NCBI GenBank assembly: GCA_014193315.1
Contig: BJHS01000018.1
Coordinates: forward strand, 1-41,176
Length of the DNA: 41,176 bases
Origin: Verrucomicrobiota bacterium
GTDB lineage: Bacteria; Verrucomicrobiota; Verrucomicrobiia; Opitutales; UBA953
Direction: 5' to 3'
The translations under genes were made by a program, and so were the position numbers. Numbering within the stretch: the stretch's first letter is position 1; each line of letters opens with the position of its first letter. The notes below the pieces were generated by a model, which worked only from the letters and a program-made list of their open reading frames with translations, searched no databases and was not told the DNA's origin. Of the stretch, positions 9,127 through 41,176 are shown one piece after another.

Positions 9127-11421
9127 TCAGCTCCGCGTCGCCCACTGCGCGAACTCCTCGTCGTCCGCTAAGACGGGCGGGTCGCCGTATTCCGTCGAGA
9201 GCAGGTTGCGGTAGGACTCGTCGGCGAAGCGCCGGCAATGCAGGAGCACGCGGGCCGTCTGGCCGGGCGCCCGGACGAGTCGGCCGAGCGCTTGGTTGAC
9301 CTTGCGCATGCCGGGGCGGACGTACGCCAGCGCGAACGCATCCTCGACACCGTCGTTGGCGAACATCTTGCGGCGCGCCTCTTGCAGCGCGTTCACCTCC
9401 GGCAACGCCGGGCCGACAATCACCGCCGAGCGGATCCGGCCGCCCAGCATGTCGACGCCTTCGCCGAGCGAGCCCCCGAGGATCAAGCACAGGATGGTAT
9501 GGCGGTTGAGGGAATCCTCGACGAAACGCGCCGTCCCATCCGGGCCGAGCCCGCGGGGCTGGAGGGCGATGTCGGCCTTCGGGTCGAGGTTGGCGACTTC
9601 CTTCCCCACGCCCTCGGCGTACTTGTAGGACGGGAAGAAGGCCGCCACCGCCCCTTCCTGCGAGAGCCGGAGCAAGGCGGCCGCCGTGCGGGCGAGGTGG
9701 GTCTCGCGCGTCTTCAGGCGCGTGTCCACTCGGCCATCGATGGCGACCGTGTAGGCGCCTTGGCGCCACGGTGCCAGCGCGTCGACCTTGGCCAGCGCGT
9801 CGCTATCCAGCCCGCACTCGTTGGCCAACGCCCCGCGGGGGCCCGGGGTCGCGGTCATCAGTAACGCATGGCCGAACTTCAGGAGCCGTTCGCCGGTCGC
9901 CTTCGCCGCCGAGAGGCAATCCAGGCTCAACGTGCCGGCGCGGGGCGACCACACTAGCCAGCCGAGGTCGGCGGCCTCCAGCCGGTCGGACCACATGCCC
10001 GCATTCCACAGGCCTTGGCGCGTGGTTTCCGAAAGGTCGTCGGTGTTGAACGGCTGGTTGGTCGCCAGTTCCGCCAATCGCTCGGCCAGCCCCATCGCCT
10101 CGAGCCGGTCGTCGGGTGAGACCGCGTCGGCCTTCGGCAACCGCCCGAGGAAGTCGGCCCAATCCTGCGTGGCGCGGATCCAAGGCTCAGGGGCGCGGTG
10201 ACGCCCCAGCTCATGGGCGAGGTCGGCGGCGTCGGGGGCGTCGTCCCGCAGGGAGAGGCATTCCGCCGCCCGGTCGGGCAGGTTGTGGGCCTCGTCGACG
10301 ATCAGGGCGGTGTCGGACTCGTCCCAGCCCGGCACGTTCTCGAGCGCCGCGCGGTTGCGGGGCGAGAAGACGTAGTTGTAATCGCAGATCACCCCCTCGG
10401 CGTACGCGAGCATCGCCTTGGTGATGTCCCAGGGCGGCACGCCGGCCAGCCGGCCGATCTCGCGGATGCGGCGGAGGTTGGAGCCGTCCTCGAGCAAGGC
10501 CTGCGGGTCGATGCCGGCGCGGGCCCAGTTGCGGCGGATCTCTTCCGGGTCGTCGGGTTGGCCGTCCACCTCGTGCTCCGCCCGGGGGCGCAGGACCAAG
10601 GCGCGGAGCTCGGACGGCTTCGCCAAACGCCGCAGCTCTTGCAGCACCTGCAGCTGACCGGTGCCTTTCCCCGTGAGGTAGAGCAAGCGCCCCGCGCGAC
10701 CGCCGCGGAGCAGGCCGAGGCCGTGGCGGAGCGCGGCGGAAGTCTTGCCGTAGCCCGTCGGCGCGACCAGCAAGCGGGTGGAGGATTCCATGCCCGCTTG
10801 GTCGAGGTCGGCGCACCCTTGCAGCCATTCCGGCCGCGGCTCCTTGAATGGCAGGCGATCCGGCAGGCAGAGCAGGCGGGCGTGGCTCGCGCGGCGGTTC
10901 TCCGCGTGGGCCGCGATGGTTTCGGCTTGTTTGAGGAGGTCCGCTTCGGCGCTCGGGGGTAGCGGCACCGCCTGCTGCTCGCCGCTGGTCAGGTCGACGA
11001 ACACGACCTCGCCTTGCACCTGCCGGACGGTGGCGTCGAGCCGCGCCGCCTGGCAATAGAGGGACAGTTGCAGGAAGTGATGCGGGTAACGTTGGACGAG
11101 CTGGTCGGGCCGGCGGGGGAGGGAGGTGCTCACCGTCTTGATCTCGCGGACCCGGACGGCGCCGTCGACCGCGCGCCATTGGTCGGCCCGGCCCGTGATG
11201 ACCAGCCGCCACCCGAGCGCCTGCAGCTCGCAGTTCGCCGCCTGTTCGAAGGTCCAGTGATCCTGCTCGGCCTCGGCTTGGCGTCGGAGCGTCTCGTGCC
11301 ACTGCCGGCCAGCCTCGGCGCGCCACGGCGCCCCGCCGGCGCCGGCGCCGGGTCCGGGTCGGAACGTGGCAAACTCCTGGGCGCTCAGTTCAATCCGCCG
11401 CGACTTGATGTCGAAGCGCAT
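9127..11421 (-). CDS. PD-(D/E)XK nuclease-like domain fused to an XPD/DinG-like helicase
   Basis: This 764-residue protein is probably a DNA repair or recombination enzyme. Residues about 35-130 resemble a RecB/Cas4-type nuclease: WHETL, then GRAD (D80), REIKTV (E93, K95) and a downstream QLSLYCQAA helix. The helicase follows: PTGYGKT Walker A (221-227), VICDYNYVFSP, DEAH (376-379), MTATP, GSLGEGVDMLGG and QALGRLVRAPGQ. Between Walker A and DEAH the layout matches iron-sulfur XPD-family helicases. However, the usual four cysteines are absent: VPPWDI (328-333) stands where C-P-F/Y is expected, and the only Cys is in ICDYNYV. ATG 11421 overlaps the recO stop by one base, and the longer upstream frame is antisense sequence inside recO. 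Polarity and substrate are unknown. Confidence 0.85.
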   Translation of the reverse strand: MRFDIKSRRIELSAQEFATFRPGPGAGAGGAPWRAEAGRQWHETLRRQAEAEQDHWTFEQAANCELQALGWRLVITGRADQWRAVDGAVRVREIKTVSTSLPRRPDQLVQRYPHHFLQLSLYCQAARLDATVRQVQGEVVFVDLTSGEQQAVPLPPSAEADLLKQAETIAAHAENRRASHARLLCLPDRLPFKEPRPEWLQGCADLDQAGMESSTRLLVAPTGYGKTSAALRHGLGLLRGGRAGRLLYLTGKGTGQLQVLQELRRLAKPSELRALVLRPRAEHEVDGQPDDPEEIRRNWARAGIDPQALLEDGSNLRRIREIGRLAGVPPWDITKAMLAYAEGVICDYNYVFSPRNRAALENVPGWDESDTALIVDEAHNLPDRAAECLSLRDDAPDAADLAHELGRHRAPEPWIRATQDWADFLGRLPKADAVSPDDRLEAMGLAERLAELATNQPFNTDDLSETTRQGLWNAGMWSDRLEAADLGWLVWSPRAGTLSLDCLSAAKATGERLLKFGHALLMTATPGPRGALANECGLDSDALAKVDALAPWRQGAYTVAIDGRVDTRLKTRETHLARTAAALLRLSQEGAVAAFFPSYKYAEGVGKEVANLDPKADIALQPRGLGPDGTARFVEDSLNRHTILCLILGGSLGEGVDMLGGRIRSAVIVGPALPEVNALQEARRKMFANDGVEDAFALAYVRPGMRKVNQALGRLVRAPGQTARVLLHCRRFADESYRNLLSTEYGDPPVLADDEEFAQWATRS

Positions 11422-12023
11422 CAGGGCAGGACGAAATGGGCTTCGCCCGCGGCCCAGCGCTCGAGGTCGGTCGCCAGCCGCTGCACGCTGTCTTCCTCGG
11501 TCGTCTGCGCGTCGAGCGGTTGCGTCAGGATCGCTCCGGCCGCGTCGCGGCGGGCGCCGAGCCCGGCCAGCCAATCCTCCTGCACCGGCCAGCCCCCGTC
11601 CTTCAGCATCAACCAGAGTCCCTTGAAGTAAGCCGCGTCCGCGCGCGGGCGCGTCGCCATCGCGTCAAAGGTCTCGGTCGCGATGCGGGCGCAGACCGCG
11701 GCGGATTCGGGCGGGGGTGGGTTCTTCCGCACCATCGCGGCAAACCGGCAGGCGCGTTCCAGCGTGCGGTGGTCGCGCGCGATGCCCAGCCGGCGGTGCA
11801 GGAGGCGGTAGTCGCGGGCGAAGCGCGTCCCGCCGTCCTTGGCGCGCTCGAGGGTGATCTCCCCCTCGTCGAAGAGGTCGGGGATCGTCGCGGTCTTGCC
11901 GGCGCGGGCGCGGATCAGGCAACGGAGTAGGCCCTCGTGGGGCTCGAGCAAGGTGAGCAGCGAATGCGATTCCCCCGACGGGTCGCGTCCGAGGACCAGG
12001 CAACGCAGCGGGGCGGACGACAT
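11421..12023 (-). CDS. recO: RecO-like DNA repair protein
   Basis: This is a probable RecO, the mediator that loads RecA onto SSB-coated gaps in the RecFOR pathway. The N-terminal 70 residues look like the RecO OB fold (LRCLVLGRDPSGESHSLLTLLEPHEGLLRCLIRARAG, given here in two pieces: LRCLVLGRDPSGESH and LLTLLEPHEGLL). The rest is helical with FDAMATRPRADAAYFKGLWL. At 200 residues it is shorter than typical RecO (about 240) and shows no zinc-binding cysteine cluster. It overlaps the nuclease-helicase start by one base and begins five bases after the DUF502 gene, so repair functions appear grouped. RecO is a weakly conserved family, so this is a moderate assignment. Confidence 0.65.
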   Translation of the reverse strand: MSSAPLRCLVLGRDPSGESHSLLTLLEPHEGLLRCLIRARAGKTATIPDLFDEGEITLERAKDGGTRFARDYRLLHRRLGIARDHRTLERACRFAAMVRKNPPPPESAAVCARIATETFDAMATRPRADAAYFKGLWLMLKDGGWPVQEDWLAGLGARRDAAGAILTQPLDAQTTEEDSVQRLATDLERWAAGEAHFVLP

Positions 12024-12028
12024 CCGCC

Positions 12029-12712
12029 TCAGGCCTGGTCGTCGGGCTTCGGGATGACCGCGCCGAAACTCATCAGCAACGCGAGGGCTTCGGAAACCTT
12101 GAGCTTCGTCTCGCGGATGTCTTCGGGGGGCACCTGCAGGATGAAGCCCGAGGTCGGTGCTGGGGCGGCCGGGATGAAGACATTGACCACCGGGCGGCCG
12201 AGGGCCTCGGAGAAGGCGGCGGGTTGCTCATGGGTCACGAAGGCGATGCTCCAGCAATTCACGCGCGGGTATTGCACGAGCACCACCCGGCGGAAGGTGT
12301 CCTTGTTGCGGCCGCTGAGCGCATCGACCATCTGCCGGATCGAGTTATACAGCGAGCCGAGGCCCGGGGTCTTCTCCAACATCTTATCGAAGACATGGTG
12401 CATGACCTTGCCGAAGAGCCGCTTGGACAGGTAGCCGATGATTGTCAGGACGACCAGCATCACGACCGCCGAGGCGATGGTCAGCGCCAGCCCCATCATG
12501 CCGTCGTTGAGGTTCGGCAGCGGCTGCTTGGTGTTCTCGAAGACCCAGGTGAGGACGAAGAGCGCGATCTGCTTGGCCGGTTTACCGAGGAGGTCGATCA
12601 GGATGGACACCACCCAGAAGGTCAGGGCGAGCGGCAAGGTCAGGAAGAGCCCCGTCAGGAAGTTATGGCCCATCCGGGAAACGAAGGAGGATTTCTCGGC
12701 GGGCAGGCTCAT
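12029..12712 (-). CDS. DUF502 family inner-membrane protein
   Basis: This conserved membrane protein of unknown function belongs to the DUF502 family. It has 227 residues, with TM1 near 14-40 (FLTGLFLTLPLALTFWVV) and TM2 near 70-93 (ASAVVMLVVLTIIGYL). The family-typical stretch EKTPGLGSLYNSIRQMVDAL is followed by RRVVLVQYPR and, near the end, FIPAAPAPTSGFILQVPPED. It is the first gene of a three-gene minus-strand unit with recO and the nuclease-helicase. The ATG is preceded by AGGGGG at very short spacing. Plant relatives of DUF502 are known as COV-like proteins; no bacterial role can be read from the sequence. Confidence 0.88.
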   Translation of the reverse strand: MSLPAEKSSFVSRMGHNFLTGLFLTLPLALTFWVVSILIDLLGKPAKQIALFVLTWVFENTKQPLPNLNDGMMGLALTIASAVVMLVVLTIIGYLSKRLFGKVMHHVFDKMLEKTPGLGSLYNSIRQMVDALSGRNKDTFRRVVLVQYPRVNCWSIAFVTHEQPAAFSEALGRPVVNVFIPAAPAPTSGFILQVPPEDIRETKLKVSEALALLMSFGAVIPKPDDQA

Positions 12713-30834: not shown

Positions 30835-33800
30835 ATGAAACCCCGTAAGCGTTTACCTATTTCGCGAGCCTGCCTCTTCGCCGCAGCCGCCCTCCTCTCC
30901 GTCGCCCCCCGGGCACGAGCGGCCAACGTGTTCTTTGACGCCGACGGCAGCGACAGCACCGCCATCGGCGCCGCGACCGTCGGCGCGACCGGCACCTGGT
31001 CCGATGCATTCTGGTACAACGCCGGCACCGCGACCTCCATCGCCGGCGACGGCGCCGTCCTTACGTACGCCTTCACCGCCGCGGATACCGCGTATTTCCA
31101 AGGGAATAAGGGCACTTTGACGGCGGCGGCGGATCAGACGGTCACGCTCAACGGCATCAACGACTCCACGGGCATGACGTTGTCCGGCGGCTCGTTGTCG
31201 CTGTCCGGCGCCGGCGCGAACATCACCGTCAACGGCTCGGTCATGACCACGATCTCGTCGGTCATCATCGGAGACGCCGGCCTCATCAAGGCCGGCACGG
31301 GCGACCTCAAGCTCGCCGCAGCTAACACCTACACCGGCGTCACGCTCATCAGCGGCGGCCGGGTCATCGTCGACAACGCGACGGCCCTCGGCCTCAGCAC
31401 CGTCAACGTCGCCACCGGCGGCACGCTGAACCTCGGCGACAAGGTCATCACCAACCTCGTGACCGTCAGCGGCGGCGAGCTGACCGGCGGCGATCTCGAC
31501 GTCGGCCTGCTCTCCGCGAGCACGGGTATCGTCTCCGCCACGCTCAGCGGCACCGCCGGCCTGACCAAGAATACCAACGGTTCGCTGCGCCTCGACGGCC
31601 TGAACACCTTCCAGGGCAACGTCCTCGTCAGCCAGGGCACGCTCCTCGCCAACCATGTCTCCGCGCTCGGCACCGGCGCCGTGACCGTCAGCGGCGGCAC
31701 GCTCGACCTCGGTACCACGACCGGTCTCGCCAACGTCGTCACGCTCTCCGGCGGCACCCTGACCGGCGGCGAGCTCGCGGCCGACAAGCTCGTGCCGGTC
31801 GCCGGCACCGTCGCCACCAAGCTCACCGGCGCCGGCAAGCTCACCAAGACCGCGGCCGGCGTCGTCACGCTCTCCGGCGCGAACAATTTCTCCGGCGGCG
31901 CCGACATCTCCGGCGGCAAGATCGTCGCCGGTTCCGGCACGGCCCTCGGCGGCGGCACGGTCTCCCTGACGGGCGGCACGCTCGACCTCGGCAACCAGAC
32001 GCTGACCAACGCCATCGTCGTCGAAGGCGGCGAACTCACCGGCGGCTCGTTCGACGTCGCGAACCTCACCGCGAAATCCGGCACCATCTCCGCGCTCATC
32101 GTCGGCTCGTCCGCGCTGACCAAGTCCGCGAACGGCGTCCTCACGCTTTCCGCCGCCAACACCGGACTGACCGGCGGCGTCGCCCTCTCCGCCGGCTCGA
32201 TCGTCGTGGGCGACGCCGCGGCCCTCGGCACCGGCGCCGTCAACGTCACCGGCGGCACGCTGAACCTCAACGCCACGGCCATCTCCAACACCGTGACCGT
32301 CGCGGGTGGTACGCTCGCCGGCGGCTCGATCGATGTCGCCAAGGTCGTCCCGACCTCCGGCACGATCTCCGCGGTCCTCACCGGTACCGCGGGCTTCGCC
32401 AAGACCACCTCGGGCGACGTCACCCTCTCCGGCGCGAACACCTTCACCGGCGGCGTCACCGTCGACGCCGGCAAGGTCACCCTCGGCAACGCCGCCGCGC
32501 TCGGCACCGTCGACCTCAACGCCGTCACCGTCGGAGCCGACGGCGCGATCGACCTCAACGGCCGGACGGCCGTCGTCGCCTCCCTCGCCGGTGCCGGCGC
32601 GGTCACCAACGCCGCGGTCACCAATGCGTCCCTCATTCTCGCCACGGGCGTCGCGACCACCTCGACCTTCTCCGGCGTCCTCTCCGGCAACCTCGGCGTC
32701 GTCAAGTATGGCTTGGCTACGCAGGTCCTCTCCGGCGCGAACACCTTCGTCGGCAACGTCCAAGTCAACGCCGGCACCTTGGTCGCCGGCAGCGCCACCG
32801 CCTTGGGCGCCGCCACCAACCTCGTCGCCGTCAACGGCGGTACGCTCGACCTCACCGGCACCACCGGCGTGACCAACGCGATCACCCTCAACTCGGGCGC
32901 CCTCGTCGGCGGCCAGGTCGCGATCGCCAACGTCACCCTCGTCACCGGCTCCGTCGGCACCCAGCTCACCGGCTCCGGCGCGCTGACCAAGTCCGCCAAC
33001 GGCACGCTCACCCTCTCCGGCTCCAACGACTTCAGCGGCGGCACCACCGTCTCCGCCGGTACTCTCGCCGCCTCGGCCGACACCGCCCTCGGTTCCGGCA
33101 CGGTCACCGTCACCGCCGGTACCCTCGACCTGACCGGTGCTTCCATCGCCAACGCGGTCTCGATCACCGGCGGCACGATCCAGGGCGGCACCATCAACGT
33201 CGCCACCGGCACCGCGGTCAGCGTCCAAGCTGGTACGATTTCGTCTGCGATGACTGGCCTTGGCGGCGTCTCCAAGACCGGCTCCGGTGTGGCTAACCTC
33301 AACGGCTCCAACGACTTCAGCGGTGGCGTCACCGTCGACGGTGGCACCGTCAACGCTGGTACGAACACGGCCTTCGGCTCCGGCAACCTGACCGTCAATT
33401 CCGGCACCGTCAACCTTGGTACGGCCAGCATCGGCAACACCACCTTCCTTAATGGCGGGACCATCACCGGCGGCACCATCAACCTGGCCACCGCCACGAC
33501 CCTCACCGCCAAGGCCGGCACCCTCGCCTCCCTCCTCGCGGGCGATGGCTCCCTGAGCAAGACCGACAACGGCACCCTGATCATCACCGGGGACAACACC
33601 GGCTTCACCGGCGTCACCACCATCGCTGGCGGCACCGTCGCCCTGGGCTCCAACGCCGCGCTCGGCAGCAGCGCCGTCACCGTCTCCGCCGGTTCCCTCG
33701 ACCTCAACGGTAAGACTATTGTCAACGGCGTCACCGTCGACGGTGGCACGCTCACCGGTGGTTCCATCGCCGTCAACCAGGTGACCCCCAAGGCCGGCAC

Positions 33801-36800
33801 CGTCGCCGCGACCCTCACTGGCTCCGCCGCCTTCGTCAAGGCCGTCGCCGGTGACGTCGTCCTCAGCGGCGCCAACACCTTCACCGGTGGCGTCGCGGTG
33901 TCTGCGGGCAAGGTCACGGTCGGTAGCGCCACCGCGCTCGGTGCGGCCAACCGCAGCCTGACGCTTTCGGCGAGCGGCACCGTCGACCTCAACGGTCGCT
34001 CCGTCTCCCTCTCCAACCTCGTCGGGACGGGCGGCGAGCTCACCAACGCCGACGCCGTCAACGCCGCGACCGTCACCGTTTCCGGCGCGACCGATTCCGC
34101 CTTCGCGGGCGTCGTCTCCGGTAACCTCGGCCTCGTCAAGACCGGCGACGGCATCCTGACCCTCACCGGCACCAACCTCTTCACCGGCAACGTGAGCGTC
34201 ACCGGTGGCACCCTCGCCGCCGGCTCCAACACCGCTCTCTCCGGCGCGACCGTCACCGTCGACGGCGCCACCCTCGACCTGGCCGGCACCACCGGCACGG
34301 GCGTCGCCAACCTCGTCACCCTCACCTCCGGCGCGCTGACCGGTGGCCAGATCGCCCTCAGCCAGGTCACCCTCGTCGCCGGCACCGTCACGACCCAGCT
34401 CACCGGCAACTCCGGCCTCACCAAGTCGAACAACTCGACCCTTAACCTCAACGCCGCCAACACCTTCGACGGTGGCGTCACGGTTTCCAATGGCACCTTG
34501 AACGTCGGCAACGACGCCGCCCTCGGTACGGGTGACCTCACCGTTACCAACGGCACCGTTAACCTCGGTACCTCCCGCGTCGGCAACACCACCTTCCTTA
34601 ATGGTGGCACCATCACCGGCGGCACCATCAACCTCGCCACCACCAAGGTCCTGACCGCCACCGCGGGCACGCTCTTCTCCCTCGTCGAAGGCGACGGTTC
34701 CCTGACCAAGACCGGCACCGGCACGCTGACCATCACGAGCAGCAACACCTTCACTGGCGGCGCCTCCATCGCAGCCGGTACCGTGACCCTCGGCGCCAAC
34801 AACGCGCTCGGCGCTGGCCCGGTTTCCCTGACCGGCGGTTCGTTGAACCTCGGCGGTAACAGCATCGTTAATATCGTCTCCATCGCGGGCGGCACGCTCA
34901 CCGGCGGCTCGTTCGATGTCGCCAAGCTCGTCGCCAACTCCGGCACCGTCGCCACCGTCCTGACTGGTAACGCCGGCTTGACGACCGCGGGCAACGTCGC
35001 GCTCAACGCGGCCAACACCTTCACCGGCGGCGTCACCGTCGCTGGCGGCACCGTCACCCTCGGCAACGCGGCCGCCCTCGGCAGCACCGCCAATACCGTC
35101 AACGTCGACGGCACCGGCACGGTTGATCTCAACGGCAAGGCCATCTCCGTCGCGGGCCTCACCGGTTCCGGCGCCCTCACCGGAGCCGCGGCCTCGACCG
35201 TCACCCTCGGTGGTGCGACCGATGCCACCTTCACCGGTGCGATCGGTGGTGCGACCGCCCTCTCCAAGACCGGCACGGGCAACCAGACCCTCGGTGGTGC
35301 GAGCACCTTCACGGGTGGCACGAGCGTCACGGGCGGCACGCTCACCGTCGCCGATAACGCCGCGCTCGGTACCGGCGCGGTCAGCATCAACGGCGGCGAG
35401 GTCGCACTTGGCACGACCACGGGCCTCCTCAACAACGTCACCCTCGTGGCCGGCGTCCTGTCCGGCGGCGCCATCCCGGTCGCCCAGGTCACGCTCAACA
35501 GCGGCACGGTTTCTTCGCTCCTCACGGGTGCGGGTTCCCTCACCAAGAGCGCCAACACCACGCTGACGCTTTCCGGTGCCAACACCTTCCAGGGTGGCGT
35601 CACCGTTTCCGGTGGTACCCTCGTTGCGGCCAACGACACCGCCCTCGGTTCCGGCACGGTCGCTGTCTCCGGCGGCACCCTCAACCTGACGACCTCCTCG
35701 ATCGCCAACGGGGTCTCGATCACCGGTGGCACGATTCTCGGCGGCACCATCAACGTCGCCACCGGCGCTACCGTTGACGTCCAGGCCGGCACGATTTCCT
35801 CCGTCATCTCCGGTCAGGGCGGCATCGCCAAGACTGGCGCGGGCGCCGCGACCCTCAGTGGCGCCAACGCCTTCAGCGGCGACGTGACGGTCGGTGGCGG
35901 CACCCTCAACGTCGGCAACGACGCCGCGCTCGGCACCGGCGCCCTCACCGTCAACACCGGCACGGTCGCCCTCGGTACCTCTAGCGTCGGCAACCTCGTC
36001 TTCCTCAATGGTGGCACGATCACCGGCGGCACGATCAACCTCGCCACCGCCACGACCCTCGCGGCCACCGGCGGCACGATTTCCTCGCTCCTCGCGGGCG
36101 ACGGCTCCCTCACCAAGACCGGCACCGGCACCTTGGTGCTGTCCAGCACCAACACCTTCCTCGGCGGCGCCTCCATCGCAGCCGGTACCGTGACCCTCGG
36201 CGCCAACAACGCGCTCGGCGCTGGCCCGGTTTCCCTGACCGGCGGTTCGTTGAACCTCGGCGGTAACAGCATCGTTAATATCGTCTCCATCGCGGGCGGC
36301 ACGCTCACCGGCGGCTCGTTCGATGTCGCCAAGCTCGTCGCCAACTCCGGCACCGTCGCCACCGTCCTGACTGGTAACGCCGGCTTGACGACCGCGGGCA
36401 ACGTCGCGCTCAACGCGGCCAACACCTTCACCGGCGGCGTCACCGTCGCTGGCGGCACCGTCACCCTCGGCAACGCGGCCGCCCTCGGCAGCACCGCCAA
36501 TACCGTCAACGTCGACGGCACCGGCACGGTCGACCTCAACGGCAAGTCCATCTCCGTCGCGGGCCTCACCGGTTCCGGCGCCCTCGCCAACGCCGGCGCG
36601 GCCTCGACCGTCACCCTCGGTGGTGCGACCGATGCCACCTTCACCGGTGCGATCGGTGGTGCGACCGCCCTCTCCAAGACCGGCACGGGCAACCAGACCC
36701 TCGGTGGTGCGAGCACCTTCACCGGTGGCACGAGCGTCACGGGCGGCACGCTCACCGTCGCCGACAACGCCGCGCTCGGCACCGGCGCGGTCAGCATCAA

Positions 36801-39800
36801 CGGCGGCGCCGTCGACCTGACGACCACCACCGTCACCAACGCCATCACGCTGGTCAACGGCTCGCTAGTCAACGGCACCGTCAACATCGCCACCGCGCTC
36901 AACGCCCAGGGCGGCACCATCTCCTCCGTCCTGTCGGGCCTCGGCTCCCTCGCCAAGACCACGAACGGCACGCTGACCCTTTCCGGTGCCAACACCTACG
37001 CGGGCGGCACCACCATCGCCGGCGGCACCGTCACCCTCGGCAGCGGCACCGCGCTCGGTACCGGCCTCACCACCCTTTCCAGCGGCACGTTGGACCTCAA
37101 CGGCCAAGGCTTCACCACCAACGTCGCCGTCACTGGCGGCACGCTCACTGGCGGCACGCTCGACGTCGCCCAGCTCACCTCCCTTCAGGCCGGCTCGGTC
37201 CTGTCGATTCTGACCGGCACCGGTGGCATCACCAAGACCACCGTCGGCACCCTCGTCTTGGGCGGCGCCAATACCTTCACCGGTGGTGTCACCGTCTCCG
37301 GCGGCGCGATCACCGTCGCCAACACGCTCGCCTTGGGCGACCTCACCAACGCCCTCAACGTCGCTTCCGGCGCGACCGTCAACCTCAACGGCAACACCGT
37401 CGTCCTCGGCGGCCTCTCCGGTGCCGGCACCGTCACGGCTTCCAGCAATTCCGCGCTGACCCTCTCCGGCAACGCTTCCACGAGCTTCTCCGGCCTGATC
37501 ACCGGCAACACCAGCCTGACCAAGTCCGGCTCCGGTACCCTGACTCTCGCCGGCGCCAACACCTACTCGCTCGGCACCACGATCTCGGGCGGCACGATCT
37601 CCTACGCCAACCTCGGCGGCCTCGGCTCCGGCGCCGTCGCCATCGGCTCGGGTGCCACCGCCTCCTTCACCGGTGCCAACGGCAACACCACCATCCCGAC
37701 CGTCCTGACCGGCGCCGGCACCTACCAGCTCGTCCTCGCCGGTACCGCCAGCAACACCTACCTCACGGGCAACCTTGCTGGCTTCACGGGCACCATCCAG
37801 GTCAGCGGCACCTCCTCCAACAAGCTCAACACGACCGGCTTCACCGGCACGGGAACCACCGTCTCCGTTGATTCGGGTAATACCGTCTTCGTCGCGAGCC
37901 CGGGCGCGACCTTCGCCGGCCTCAACCTCGTCGGCGCGGGCAACGCCGAAGGCGTCGGCGCCCTCCGCGTCTCTGCTGGCGCGACCCTGAACGCCCCGAT
38001 CACCCTTGGCGGCGCCACGACCTTCAGCCAGGAAGGTGGCATCATCGCCGGTGGCATCGCTGCTTCCACCGCGTCCACGCTCACCCTTTCGGGCACGGGC
38101 AACCTCACGCTCAACGCCCCGATCTCCGGTGCGGTCTCGATCACCAAGAACGGCACGGGCGCGCTGACCTTCGGCGGCAGCAACAGCTACACCGGCACGA
38201 CCAACATCACCGCCGGCAGCGTCAATTACCTGACGGCCGCCAGCCTGGTCGCGTCGGGCACGACGATCGCCAACGGTCTCACCGCCACCTTCAACGTCGG
38301 TGGCGCGGGCGAGTTCGGTACGGCGGACTTCGCGAAGGTCGTCGCCATCACGTTTGGTACCGGCGCCGGGAGCAACACCCTCTCGTTCAACACGCAGAAC
38401 GCCACGGCCCCGACGACCTTAGCCAACAACATCCTGAACCCGACGGGCGGCGCCATCGCCCTGACCAAGAACGGGGCCGGCACCCTCGTCCTCTCCGGCC
38501 TCAGCACCTACACCGGCGCGACCACCATCAATGGGGGCGTCCTCGAAGCCACGACCATCGCCGACACGGTCGGCAGCTCGATCGGCATTGGTACCACCGG
38601 CGGCATCTCCCTGGCCAGCACCCTGCGCTTCACCGGCCTCTCCGGCGCCTCCACCCGCCCGCTCAACGTCACCACCGGCACAATCGACGTTTCCGCCGCG
38701 ACCGGCGTCCTGACCCTCACCCCGGCCAGCGGTAACATCACCGGCGGCCTGACCAAGGCCGGCACCGGTTCCCTCGTGCTCCAAGGTGCCCGCTTCACCG
38801 GCACCAACACCGCCACCGTGACCGTCTCCGGCGGCGCGCTGACGATGAACGGCGCCAACCTCTACTCGGGCGGCACGAGCATCGCCTCTGGCGCCACCGC
38901 CACCGCGGCCGCCGTCGGCGCCTTCGGCACCGGCAAGGTCGTCGTGGCCACCGGCGGCACCTTCACCTTGGGCGCCGCCTCTCCGGGCGCAGGCACCAAT
39001 ACCTACACCTTTGCCGGCCTCCAAGGCGGCGGCACGGTCAACGTCACCAACCTAGGTACCGGCGTCGGCACGACCCAGCTGACCCTGCCGACCTCCGCCT
39101 CGACCGCGGGCGCCATCAGCACGAACAGCCTGACGCTCACGAGCGCCAGCAACTTCGACGTCGGCATGCTCATCACCGGCACGGGCATCACCGCCGGCAC
39201 GACGATCACCGCCATCGCCGGCAATGTCCTGACGCTCAGCTCCACCCTCAGCGCCGCCGCCGCCGGCACCTACACCGGCGCCCTCAATACCTTCACCGGC
39301 ACGTTGAACGTCGGCGTCGGCGGCCTGGCCGCAGGCCAGTCCGGCAAGCTCTTTAACAGCAACATCGGTACCTCGGCCGCGACCATCAACCTCCTTTCCG
39401 GCGCCACCCTCTTCACCTCCGGCAACGCCGCGACCACCTTCCTCTACGGCGGAACCCTGGGCGAGACCCTCGGCCAGTTGCGCCTGACCGGCACGAACAC
39501 GGGCAACATCGTCCTCGCTGGCATTCAGGCCAACAACGGTTCCCTTGGCGGCAACCTGACGGAATCCGGCGTGGTCTCCGGCAACATCTCCGAGGCGGGC
39601 GGCTTCCCGCGCACCCTGCGTCTGGCTTATGGCACCGGTGGCACGATCACGCTCTCCGGCACCAACACCTTCACCGGTGGCATCAATCTCGGCGGCACCG
39701 GCACGCTGAATGTCTCCTCCTCCGCGAACCTCGGTTCCGCCGCCCCGCTGCGCGACACCTACTACCTCGCCCTGGCCGGTGGCTCCCTGAACTACACCGC

Positions 39801-41176
39801 GGCCACCGATCTCACGACCGCGGCGAATATCGGTCTCAACGTCCCCGTCAACCCGACCTATAACTTCATCCTGACCACGACCACCGGCAACGTCGTCGTC
39901 TCCGGTTCCTCGCTCTTCGGCGCGACCACGCTGACCCTCGCCTCGACCGGCGCGACCGGTTCCTCCCTGACGTTCAACAAGAACGTCAACCAGTTCGGCA
40001 AGGACACCACGATGAGCCCGGGCACGGCCACCCTCGGCGCCATCTTGAAGAACAACACGACCGGGGTCGGTATCAACGCCATCAACTTCAACGGACAGAC
40101 CTACCTCAGCCAGATCCTCAATAACAGCGTCGCGCCGCTGACCGTCAACTTCGGCGCCGGCTACGCGGTCCTCGCCAACAACGGCGGCACCGATCTTCAG
40201 GGCTGGTCCGATATCGTCCTCAACGGCACCGGGGCCCTTTCGTGGGGCGCCGGCAACACCAATGTCAGCCCGGACATCGCGGCCCTCGCCGGCACGACGA
40301 TCACCACCAACGTCCGCCTCATCGGCGACGTGACGTATGAGATCTGGGGCGGCACCAACGGCGGCACGCACGTGCTCGCCAACGCGGGGAATACCTTCGT
40401 CCGTCATATCTACATCGGCAACTCGGGCACGCTTTCCACGCCGAGCCTGACCTTCTCCGGTGTCGCGAGCAACCTGGGCGCGGGTGAGAACATCTCGATC
40501 AATTCGAACGGGGGTCTCTACAACAACACCCTCCTCTACACGGGTGCCGGCACCGTCAGCAATCGCCGCATCGACCTGGGCGGCTCCGCCGTGACCTCGC
40601 TGCCGACGGGCACCGTCCCGGCCGTCGCCGGCACGAGCACCCTGAACTTTGCCTCCGTCTGGCCGACCACCGCCGCCAGCGCCGTCGGTGCCAGCACGCT
40701 CACCGTCGGCGACGCCACCAGGTTCGCGGTCGCCATGCAGCTGAGCGGCGCGAACATCCCGGCCGGCTCCGTCGTCATCGCCGTCGCCGGCAACACGGTC
40801 ACGATCAACAAGCTGCTGACCGCCGCCGTCAATCCCGGCACCACCCTCACGGGCGTGTACCTCAACCCGTACTACGCCGGCATGGCCCTCACGGGCGCCG
40901 GCGTCGTCCCGGGTACCGTGGTCACCTCCGTCAACGCCGCGGCCGGTACGGTCACCCTCTCCAACCCGCTGGTCGCCAACCAGTCCGGCAGCTACTCGGT
41001 CGCCGCGCTCTCCCCGACTAACACCTACGGCTTCAACACCGCCGCCAGCAGCGTCATCCGCAACGCCGGCGCCGGCACCCTCCGCCTGACCCGCGACTTC
41101 GGCTCGCTCGCGGCCGCCACCCGCGTCCTCACCCTGGCGGGCACCGGTTCCTTCGACCTCGCCGGCAATATCCCCG
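30835..41176 (+). CDS. Giant secreted PATR-repeat (autotransporter-type) protein, partial
   Basis: The frame is open from ATG 30835 to the window end: 3447 complete codons with no stop. A basic N-region and hydrophobic core (MKPRKRLPISRACLFAAAAL) end in a likely signal-peptidase site after ARA at about residue 29. The mature start NVFFDADG with TGTWSDAFWYN is typical of this class. From about 31276 it consists of beta-strand repeats of the type SLTKTGTGTLTL followed by SGANTFTGGVTVSGGTL, expected to fold as a long beta-helix outside the cell. An in-frame stop at 30820 fixes this ATG as the first start; there is no Shine-Dalgarno site. The C-terminus is missing, so whether it ends in an autotransporter barrel, a PEP-CTERM anchor or another sorting tail cannot be told. 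Adhesin or surface-layer roles are possible. Confidence 0.92.
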   Translation, partial: MKPRKRLPISRACLFAAAALLSVAPRARAANVFFDADGSDSTAIGAATVGATGTWSDAFWYNAGTATSIAGDGAVLTYAFTAADTAYFQGNKGTLTAAADQTVTLNGINDSTGMTLSGGSLSLSGAGANITVNGSVMTTISSVIIGDAGLIKAGTGDLKLAAANTYTGVTLISGGRVIVDNATALGLSTVNVATGGTLNLGDKVITNLVTVSGGELTGGDLDVGLLSASTGIVSATLSGTAGLTKNTNGSLRLDGLNTFQGNVLVSQGTLLANHVSALGTGAVTVSGGTLDLGTTTGLANVVTLSGGTLTGGELAADKLVPVAGTVATKLTGAGKLTKTAAGVVTLSGANNFSGGADISGGKIVAGSGTALGGGTVSLTGGTLDLGNQTLTNAIVVEGGELTGGSFDVANLTAKSGTISALIVGSSALTKSANGVLTLSAANTGLTGGVALSAGSIVVGDAAALGTGAVNVTGGTLNLNATAISNTVTVAGGTLAGGSIDVAKVVPTSGTISAVLTGTAGFAKTTSGDVTLSGANTFTGGVTVDAGKVTLGNAAALGTVDLNAVTVGADGAIDLNGRTAVVASLAGAGAVTNAAVTNASLILATGVATTSTFSGVLSGNLGVVKYGLATQVLSGANTFVGNVQVNAGTLVAGSATALGAATNLVAVNGGTLDLTGTTGVTNAITLNSGALVGGQVAIANVTLVTGSVGTQLTGSGALTKSANGTLTLSGSNDFSGGTTVSAGTLAASADTALGSGTVTVTAGTLDLTGASIANAVSITGGTIQGGTINVATGTAVSVQAGTISSAMTGLGGVSKTGSGVANLNGSNDFSGGVTVDGGTVNAGTNTAFGSGNLTVNSGTVNLGTASIGNTTFLNGGTITGGTINLATATTLTAKAGTLASLLAGDGSLSKTDNGTLIITGDNTGFTGVTTIAGGTVALGSNAALGSSAVTVSAGSLDLNGKTIVNGVTVDGGTLTGGSIAVNQVTPKAGTVAATLTGSAAFVKAVAGDVVLSGANTFTGGVAVSAGKVTVGSATALGAANRSLTLSASGTVDLNGRSVSLSNLVGTGGELTNADAVNAATVTVSGATDSAFAGVVSGNLGLVKTGDGILTLTGTNLFTGNVSVTGGTLAAGSNTALSGATVTVDGATLDLAGTTGTGVANLVTLTSGALTGGQIALSQVTLVAGTVTTQLTGNSGLTKSNNSTLNLNAANTFDGGVTVSNGTLNVGNDAALGTGDLTVTNGTVNLGTSRVGNTTFLNGGTITGGTINLATTKVLTATAGTLFSLVEGDGSLTKTGTGTLTITSSNTFTGGASIAAGTVTLGANNALGAGPVSLTGGSLNLGGNSIVNIVSIAGGTLTGGSFDVAKLVANSGTVATVLTGNAGLTTAGNVALNAANTFTGGVTVAGGTVTLGNAAALGSTANTVNVDGTGTVDLNGKAISVAGLTGSGALTGAAASTVTLGGATDATFTGAIGGATALSKTGTGNQTLGGASTFTGGTSVTGGTLTVADNAALGTGAVSINGGEVALGTTTGLLNNVTLVAGVLSGGAIPVAQVTLNSGTVSSLLTGAGSLTKSANTTLTLSGANTFQGGVTVSGGTLVAANDTALGSGTVAVSGGTLNLTTSSIANGVSITGGTILGGTINVATGATVDVQAGTISSVISGQGGIAKTGAGAATLSGANAFSGDVTVGGGTLNVGNDAALGTGALTVNTGTVALGTSSVGNLVFLNGGTITGGTINLATATTLAATGGTISSLLAGDGSLTKTGTGTLVLSSTNTFLGGASIAAGTVTLGANNALGAGPVSLTGGSLNLGGNSIVNIVSIAGGTLTGGSFDVAKLVANSGTVATVLTGNAGLTTAGNVALNAANTFTGGVTVAGGTVTLGNAAALGSTANTVNVDGTGTVDLNGKSISVAGLTGSGALANAGAASTVTLGGATDATFTGAIGGATALSKTGTGNQTLGGASTFTGGTSVTGGTLTVADNAALGTGAVSINGGAVDLTTTTVTNAITLVNGSLVNGTVNIATALNAQGGTISSVLSGLGSLAKTTNGTLTLSGANTYAGGTTIAGGTVTLGSGTALGTGLTTLSSGTLDLNGQGFTTNVAVTGGTLTGGTLDVAQLTSLQAGSVLSILTGTGGITKTTVGTLVLGGANTFTGGVTVSGGAITVANTLALGDLTNALNVASGATVNLNGNTVVLGGLSGAGTVTASSNSALTLSGNASTSFSGLITGNTSLTKSGSGTLTLAGANTYSLGTTISGGTISYANLGGLGSGAVAIGSGATASFTGANGNTTIPTVLTGAGTYQLVLAGTASNTYLTGNLAGFTGTIQVSGTSSNKLNTTGFTGTGTTVSVDSGNTVFVASPGATFAGLNLVGAGNAEGVGALRVSAGATLNAPITLGGATTFSQEGGIIAGGIAASTASTLTLSGTGNLTLNAPISGAVSITKNGTGALTFGGSNSYTGTTNITAGSVNYLTAASLVASGTTIANGLTATFNVGGAGEFGTADFAKVVAITFGTGAGSNTLSFNTQNATAPTTLANNILNPTGGAIALTKNGAGTLVLSGLSTYTGATTINGGVLEATTIADTVGSSIGIGTTGGISLASTLRFTGLSGASTRPLNVTTGTIDVSAATGVLTLTPASGNITGGLTKAGTGSLVLQGARFTGTNTATVTVSGGALTMNGANLYSGGTSIASGATATAAAVGAFGTGKVVVATGGTFTLGAASPGAGTNTYTFAGLQGGGTVNVTNLGTGVGTTQLTLPTSASTAGAISTNSLTLTSASNFDVGMLITGTGITAGTTITAIAGNVLTLSSTLSAAAAGTYTGALNTFTGTLNVGVGGLAAGQSGKLFNSNIGTSAATINLLSGATLFTSGNAATTFLYGGTLGETLGQLRLTGTNTGNIVLAGIQANNGSLGGNLTESGVVSGNISEAGGFPRTLRLAYGTGGTITLSGTNTFTGGINLGGTGTLNVSSSANLGSAAPLRDTYYLALAGGSLNYTAATDLTTAANIGLNVPVNPTYNFILTTTTGNVVVSGSSLFGATTLTLASTGATGSSLTFNKNVNQFGKDTTMSPGTATLGAILKNNTTGVGINAINFNGQTYLSQILNNSVAPLTVNFGAGYAVLANNGGTDLQGWSDIVLNGTGALSWGAGNTNVSPDIAALAGTTITTNVRLIGDVTYEIWGGTNGGTHVLANAGNTFVRHIYIGNSGTLSTPSLTFSGVASNLGAGENISINSNGGLYNNTLLYTGAGTVSNRRIDLGGSAVTSLPTGTVPAVAGTSTLNFASVWPTTAASAVGASTLTVGDATRFAVAMQLSGANIPAGSVVIAVAGNTVTINKLLTAAVNPGTTLTGVYLNPYYAGMALTGAGVVPGTVVTSVNAAAGTVTLSNPLVANQSGSYSVAALSPTNTYGFNTAASSVIRNAGAGTLRLTRDFGSLAAATRVLTLAGTGSFDLAGNIP
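34756..35123 (+). repeat. 368-bp exact duplicate, copy A
   Basis: It is identical, base for base, to 36163-36530 (offset 1407 bp, 469 codons). It sits inside a longer similar block (about 34501-35398 versus 35908-36808) whose second copy gains one codon near 36590. The two copies lie in the same frame of the giant gene. Confidence 0.92.
36163..36530 (+). repeat. 368-bp exact duplicate, copy B
   Basis: This is the second copy of the segment at 34756-35123. The flanking similarity continues on both sides with scattered, mostly synonymous differences, and ends abruptly at 36808 where copy A has GAG and copy B GCC. Confidence 0.92.
39121..39279 (+). repeat. GxxI-TGTGI-type beta module 1 inside the giant protein
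   Basis: This segment encodes NSLTLTSASNFDVGMLITG, then TGITAGTTITAIAGNVLTLS. It differs from the PATR pattern and resembles small beta modules in phage tail and surface proteins (x-x-G-x-x-I-x-G-x-G-I-x-x-G-T-x-V). Two related modules follow at 40680 and 40876. Confidence 0.6.
40681..41010 (+). repeat. Two further beta modules of the same type
   Basis: The first encodes STLTVGDATRFAVAMQLSG, then ANIPAGSVVIAVAGNTVTIN. The second encodes YYAGMALTGAGVVPGTVVTS, then VNAAAGTVTLSNPLVA. They share order and spacing with the module at 39121. They lie in the irregular C-proximal part of the visible protein. Confidence 0.6.

Follow-up and report, generated by a model that had tools for sequence, protein, structure and literature searches.

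Iron–sulfur cluster cysteines are lost across a clade of nuclease-fused DinG-like helicases from Opitutales

Here, we analysed a helicase-nuclease gene in a stretch of 41,176 nucleotides (hereafter the window; contig BJHS01000018.1 of assembly GCA_014193315.1) from a Verrucomicrobiota bacterium of the order Opitutales. Judged by its sequence, the encoded protein is a homologue of the nuclease-fused DinG helicases whose iron–sulfur (Fe-S) cluster has been lost by a whole clade. The role of this cluster in XPD-family helicases, be it structural, as a redox switch or in damage sensing, is debated. The group presented here is a natural experiment on the purpose of the cluster, as the cluster was lost while the residues for both activities were kept. 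We consider it likely that the protein is a cluster-less enzyme resembling the ‘EndoDinG’ type, with a folded helical pseudo-FeS domain, which would unwind and cut DNA in chromosomal repair.

The gene occupies positions 9127–11421 of the minus strand, as the earlier note had placed it, and encodes an uninterrupted protein of 764 amino acids, while the plus-strand frame contains stops. Its ATG start at position 11421 overlaps the stop codon of the upstream gene (TGATG). An N-terminal PD-(D/E)XK nuclease domain (10897–11328, minus strand; residues 32–175, PDDEXK_1, E = 2e-7) with the residues H42, E59, D80, E93, K95, Q118 and Y122 is fused to an XPD/DinG-like superfamily 2 (SF2) helicase. On the translated protein, the Walker A motif APTGYGKT was found at residues 220–227 (10741–10764) and the DEAH box at residues 376–379 (10285–10296); the pseudo-FeS region between them was delimited by us as residues 269–345 (10387–10617). 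The Pfam family DEAD_2 matches residues 315–391 (E = 5e-9), and motor domain 2 is covered by Helicase_C_2 (residues 588–743; 9193–9660; Pfam E = 1e-22), all of these features lying on the minus strand. What the earlier note had read from the letters, namely Walker A, D376-E-A-H379, VPPWDI (328–333), ICDYNYVF (345–352), an XPD/DinG layout and a fused PD-(D/E)XK domain with D80, E93 and K95 intact, was found again in the minus-strand protein, the domain matches and the alignment. The source genome comprises 2.36 Mb in 44 contigs at 97% completeness and contains a single Helicase_C_2 match, which is this gene. Its closest named relatives are metagenome-assembled genomes titled Opitutae, Opitutales or Verrucomicrobia, among them ‘Opitutae bacterium BS10’ and an Erken bin, both at 93% identity. 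Genes of the same type also occur on contigs titled Akkermansia muciniphila (L017, 79% identity) and Polynucleobacter meluiroseus (L037, 77%), records which are probably mislabelled or derived from mixed bins.

Alignment with relatives from the same order confirmed that all four cluster cysteines (C1 to C4) are missing: position C1 is taken by E284 (EHE versus EHC in the relatives), C2 and C3 fall within a deletion, and position C4 is P329. By sequence, the window protein hence retains none of the four cysteines that bind the [4Fe-4S] cluster of XPD and DinG. All 51 Opitutae-type sequences (the window protein and 50 further ones, leaving out eight of the 58 close loci with less than 640 amino acids and the frame-broken L060) carry P329, H283 and E284 and have no cysteine in residues 279–345. 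The same loss was found in all 35 rows of the protein's own family in a 167-row alignment, 15 of them being loci of named records assigned to the family by identity, so that it is conserved in the clade and not the error of one assembly; an assembly or sequencing error was also rejected because the 51 sequences stem from many assemblies. Distant relatives, in turn, read C..C..C..CP between Walker A and DEAH: in 18 sequences titled Latescibacterota, Gemmatimonadetes, several Clostridia and others, with 20–27% identity to the window protein, the C4 column holds cysteine in 18 of 18 and the region contains four to five cysteines. Substitute cysteines were rejected as an explanation. The alignment placed none at the cluster positions; the window protein has ten cysteines, none of which lies in residues 268–345, and the nearest, C346 in ICDYNYVF, is part of the motor. 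A cysteine in the C346 column is found in 17/30 outgroup rows and 8/88 cluster-bearing rows of the order, every one of which also has the C4 cysteine.

Matches to the helicase-nuclease were obtained in 97 of 177 genomes drawn from the order, 69 of 79 drawn from the family and 77 of 387 drawn from the phylum, some of the latter being weak and partial. The 167-row alignment, which includes 15 of the 58 close named loci and leaves out L180–L206, L001, L079 and rows below 560 amino acids, revealed graded cysteine states. C4 is kept in 118 rows and absent from 49, i.e. the 35 own-family rows and 14 others (ten of 13 in family f21, both rows of f3 and the single rows of f2 and f12), the f2 row lacking C4 yet retaining a cysteine at C1. 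The order contributes 88 cluster-bearing rows. The C1 cysteine is present in 46 of them, including all rows of f14, f24 and f8; 27 have only C2, C3 and C4 (all of f11 and f9, 8/10 in f20, 3/4 in f5 and one in f21); and in 15 the third cysteine before C4 lies outside the C1 column (f22, f4, f23 and single rows of other families). The three-cysteine rows without C1, for example L088, L089, L092, L093, L097 and L102 from f20, f11 and f5, mostly carry a histidine just before the C1 site. Outside the order, genus g180 provides further relatives: L225 (family f59) has retained C4 with C1–C3 gone, L225 and L243 together keep C4 with C1–C3 mostly gone, and the second copy of the genus is frame-broken, the genus-mate G356 showing a broken reading frame with one cysteine besides C4.

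The histidine bears on the question whether H283 and acidic residues might bind a different metal or a cluster with other ligands. H283 is present in 35/35 own-family rows, and 79 of the 88 cluster-bearing rows have histidine at this position. As 27 of the 88 lack C1 and keep C2 to C4, the histidine may once have acted as a ligand, which would make the three-cysteine rows a histidine-liganded intermediate state of the cluster. For the window protein itself, we regard such a site as very unlikely: within residues 268–345, its family has no second histidine or cysteine conserved at 90%, which argues against zinc as well as against an Fe-S site.

Was the cluster lost once or repeatedly? On a tree of 100 rows calculated without the FeS columns, parsimony required seven changes in the C4 column, a count from which L225 was excluded. 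A subset of 56 rows with 18 cluster-less ones again gave seven changes; placing its cluster-less rows in a single clade cost 23.7 log units and was not rejected (AU p = 0.196). With 49 rows, obtained by removing the cluster-less L159, L137, L150, L119 and L120 as well as L149 and L107 (long branches or unsettled positions), four changes were counted and the single clade received AU p = 0.036, a weak result since these rows were picked after the first result was known. In a quick tree without bootstrap, the own family forms one clade (SH-aLRT 99) adjoining the cluster-bearing family f20 (SH-aLRT 87). The mixed states in f21, with three rows that kept and ten that lost the cluster, argue for more than one loss, provided that this family code stands for a true species group. 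We therefore put forward only tentatively, and at somewhat below even chances, that the cluster was dismantled stepwise within one order, from four cysteines to three (usually with histidine beside the C1 site) and on to none, and that this occurred repeatedly while the residues of motor and nuclease stayed the same.

Residues required for a working enzyme are well preserved. We checked 25 positions in the nuclease and the motor: 24 do not vary among the cluster-less rows, and only G650 does. Position 650 is glycine in the own family; the remaining cluster-less rows and 75/87 cluster-bearing rows of the order have serine or threonine. Counting rows with letters at the respective positions only, the seven nuclease residues are found in 34/34 own-family rows, 14/14 other cluster-less rows, 87/87 cluster-bearing rows of the order and 29–30 of 30 outgroup rows. 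The pseudo-FeS region is under purifying selection, with a dN/dS of 0.136 compared to 0.14 for the nuclease, 0.104 for motor domain 2, 0.061–0.102 for the pieces of motor domain 1 and a maximum of 0.164 for the arch. These values are pairwise counts from 30 gap-free close relatives, hand-picked from loci of equal length, with synonymous changes near saturation and region boundaries set by us. The predicted structure of the window protein (pLDDT 86.7, pTM 0.83) contains four helices in the pseudo-FeS domain (292–302, 306–312, 316–326 and 330–340), and ten-residue blocks between 271 and 340 reach pLDDT values between 79 and 90.

The unchanged motif residues, together with purifying selection on the pseudo-FeS region, favour an enzyme that works without the cluster, and on this basis the protein is probably active. 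The earlier note had argued that, the cluster being needed in XPD and DinG, the protein must either work without it or have changed its role; the first option is now favoured, and the dilemma itself turned out weaker than it was put. Disruption of the FeS-binding motif indeed abolishes the helicase activity of Escherichia coli DinG and of archaeal XPD, according to the available text of PMC12345164. Following this argumentation, cluster loss might have disabled unwinding and left an ATP-driven single-strand translocase or a nuclease regulated by ATP, a reading with which the invariant nuclease residues and the peak of dN/dS in the arch would agree. However, two natural cluster-less DinG proteins, Staphylococcus aureus DinG (PMC12345164) and CasDinG (PMC10450177), are described in the accessible parts of these sources as unwinding DNA. 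Moreover, the motor residues of the window protein family are unchanged and the constraint on its pseudo-FeS region is close to that on the nuclease. We hence judge a disabled helicase to be unlikely, albeit the most serious of the rival readings.

The gene neighbourhood adds to this. Immediately upstream lies a gene for a RecO-like protein of 200 amino acids with a diverged sequence (11421–12023, minus strand), followed by a DUF502 gene (12029–12712, minus strand; Pfam), giving the order DUF502, RecO-like gene, helicase-nuclease. The label RecO-like is a weak one: the upstream gene matches RecO_N at E = 0.046, below the cut-off, as are its homologues at L122 (adjacent, 2e-4) and L104 (about 0.9 kb upstream, 1.1e-3), the homologue at L136 gave no RecO_N match, and the reco model had zero matches in the source genome. 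Two genera of the own family, g1 and g3, share the three-gene order with cluster-bearing rows from f14, f8, f23, f5 and f21. In a profile search covering about 1.5 kb or less upstream, a RecO-like frame ended within 400 nt upstream in 9/19 coded own-family rows, namely in 9/10 rows of g1 and g3 (the tenth being cut at a contig end) and in 0/9 of g4 and g245 (one being cut 153 nt upstream). Beyond the own family, such a frame was present in 21/33 rows of f14, 6/6 of f8, 1/1 of f23, 1/4 of f5 and 2/13 of f21, and in none of f11 (0/14), f20, f22, f24, f4 and f3; it was located farther upstream in four of ten f20 rows and in single rows of f3, f4 and f5. The neighbourhood is thus common to cluster-bearing and cluster-less members, yet not universal, given its absence from g4/g245 and f11. 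For g1 and g3, though not for g4 and g245, the agreement with several cluster-bearing families further favours an enzyme that works without the cluster. The window also encodes a nitroreductase and genes of complex I, an enzyme that requires Fe-S clusters, so that a want of cluster assembly is unlikely to be the cause of the loss. At 30835–41175 (plus strand) it contains a reading frame composed of repeats, which stays open for over 3400 codons, runs off the window end and whose first 1000 residues match PATR (passenger-associated-transport-repeat).

The source genome has no PDDEXK_1 match other than the helicase-nuclease, a single UvrD-type helicase frame (694 amino acids) and RecJ, which suggested a substitute for AddAB or RecBCD. 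As a general role this was rejected, because the genus-mates G068, G116 and G128 carry additional PDDEXK_1 frames (908, 991 and 1084 amino acids) and because, of 34 genomes from the order that gave a RecC match, 23 (matched by hand) also possess the helicase-nuclease; G019 has a RecC-like frame. Absences in these many-genome RecC and PDDEXK_1 searches are unreliable, the PDDEXK_1 search having missed the window's own domain. Genus g2 of family f1 has the helicase-nuclease in 0/8 genomes and a RecC-like match in 6/6 drawn, and genus g1 shows the opposite (7/7 and 1/7); we make no claim from this pattern, as it reflects few independent events.

A CRISPR type IV DinG (CasDinG) or another defence helicase could also be suspected, since the PADLOC typeIV_DinG model PDLC01439 matches at 4.3e-52 and, as far as the available text of PMC10450177 describes it, the FeS domain of CasDinG likewise has no cluster cysteines. 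The model, however, matches two nuclease-fused relatives with all four cysteines much more strongly (L062, 1.6e-138, and L061, 4.1e-132) and hence behaves as a model of the helicase type; Cas4 models, too, recognise the nuclease part of L061 (5e-7). The only csf gene searched for, csf2, had no match in the genome, the window neighbours (nitroreductase, DUF502 and complex I genes) are not those of a CRISPR locus, the N-terminus carries a PD-(D/E)XK nuclease, and the fold agrees better with Finegoldia magna DinG (Z 25.0) than with CasDinG (19.2). A CRISPR identity was rejected on these grounds, and we rate it as extremely improbable. Among plasmid records, 15 matches were obtained, all below 60% identity. 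As a practical consequence, PDLC01439 may mislabel chromosomal genes of the nuclease-fused DinG type as CRISPR type IV DinG.

How might a helicase-nuclease operate without its cluster? In the reading we prefer, the SF2 motor would travel 5'-3' along single-stranded DNA, and the pseudo-FeS domain and the arch would still build the pore and the wedge that separates the strands. Packing around the start of the VPPW helix would stand in for the metal, which is a guess. The N-terminal PD-(D/E)XK domain would cut the strand passed on by the motor, and the role would be chromosomal DNA repair, possibly in concert with the RecO-like protein that the overlapping gene upstream encodes. If the stepwise and repeated loss holds true, this branch of the XPD superfamily would not need the cluster mechanically; the cluster's main function would have been that of a switch responding to redox state or oxygen, or of a staple of the fold that packing can replace. 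As the order contains otherwise conserved homologues with four, with three and without cysteines, it provides matched natural pairs for biochemistry.

Compared with known systems, the closest kin of the window protein are chromosomal nuclease-fused DinGs of the EndoDinG layout and not CRISPR Cas4-helicase fusions, and it is probably an orthologue of the former. DinG proteins without a cluster are already known: the available text of Cheng 2025 (PMC11981726) lists pseudo-FeS domains for CasDinG, CasDinG-HNH and certain ExoDinG. A literature search, supplements not covered, gave no recognisable report of a cluster-less EndoDinG or of graded loss within one order, so that we did not find a precedent for these two aspects. 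ExoDinG membership does not apply, as no exonuclease family matched at E up to 1 and residues 32–175 match PDDEXK_1; S. aureus DinG, an ExoDinG, is likewise nuclease-fused with a pseudo-FeS domain and unwinds DNA, as described in PMC12345164, but has a 3'-5' exonuclease domain in place of PD-(D/E)XK (fold score Z 18.8). Pseudomonas aeruginosa CasDinG shares the XPD-like motor and an FeS-position domain without cluster cysteines, which is called vestigial and suggested to be necessary for stability of this active helicase; it differs by its CRISPR association, its lower fold score and an N-terminal accessory domain that the accessible sections of PMC10450177 do not describe as a nuclease. The best match in the PDB is F. 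magna DinG 9kqh, a complex with ssDNA and ADPNP (Foldseek E 4.2e-39), for which our literature search found no paper. It aligns over 706 residues (rmsd 5.4; model residues 7–746, nuclease included), ahead of XPD entries with Z up to 24.6, and has the same architecture and a similar length (748 amino acids), but shares only 20% identity and carries the cysteines KVC..KC..DC..VCP in the domain. With EndoDinG proteins, exemplified by Bdellovibrio bacteriovorus DinG, the window protein has in common the N-terminal PD-(D/E)XK domain with H, E, D, E and K (here H42, E59, D80, E93 and K95, all conserved), the XPD-type motor with both motor domains (structurally matched to 9kqh and XPD), the insertion at the FeS position and the arch. 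The available text of PMC11981726 describes a conserved CCCC motif for this subgroup, of which all four cysteines are absent here; we thus file the protein as an EndoDinG variant rather than a plain member, and its clade shows that there are exceptions to the published rule.
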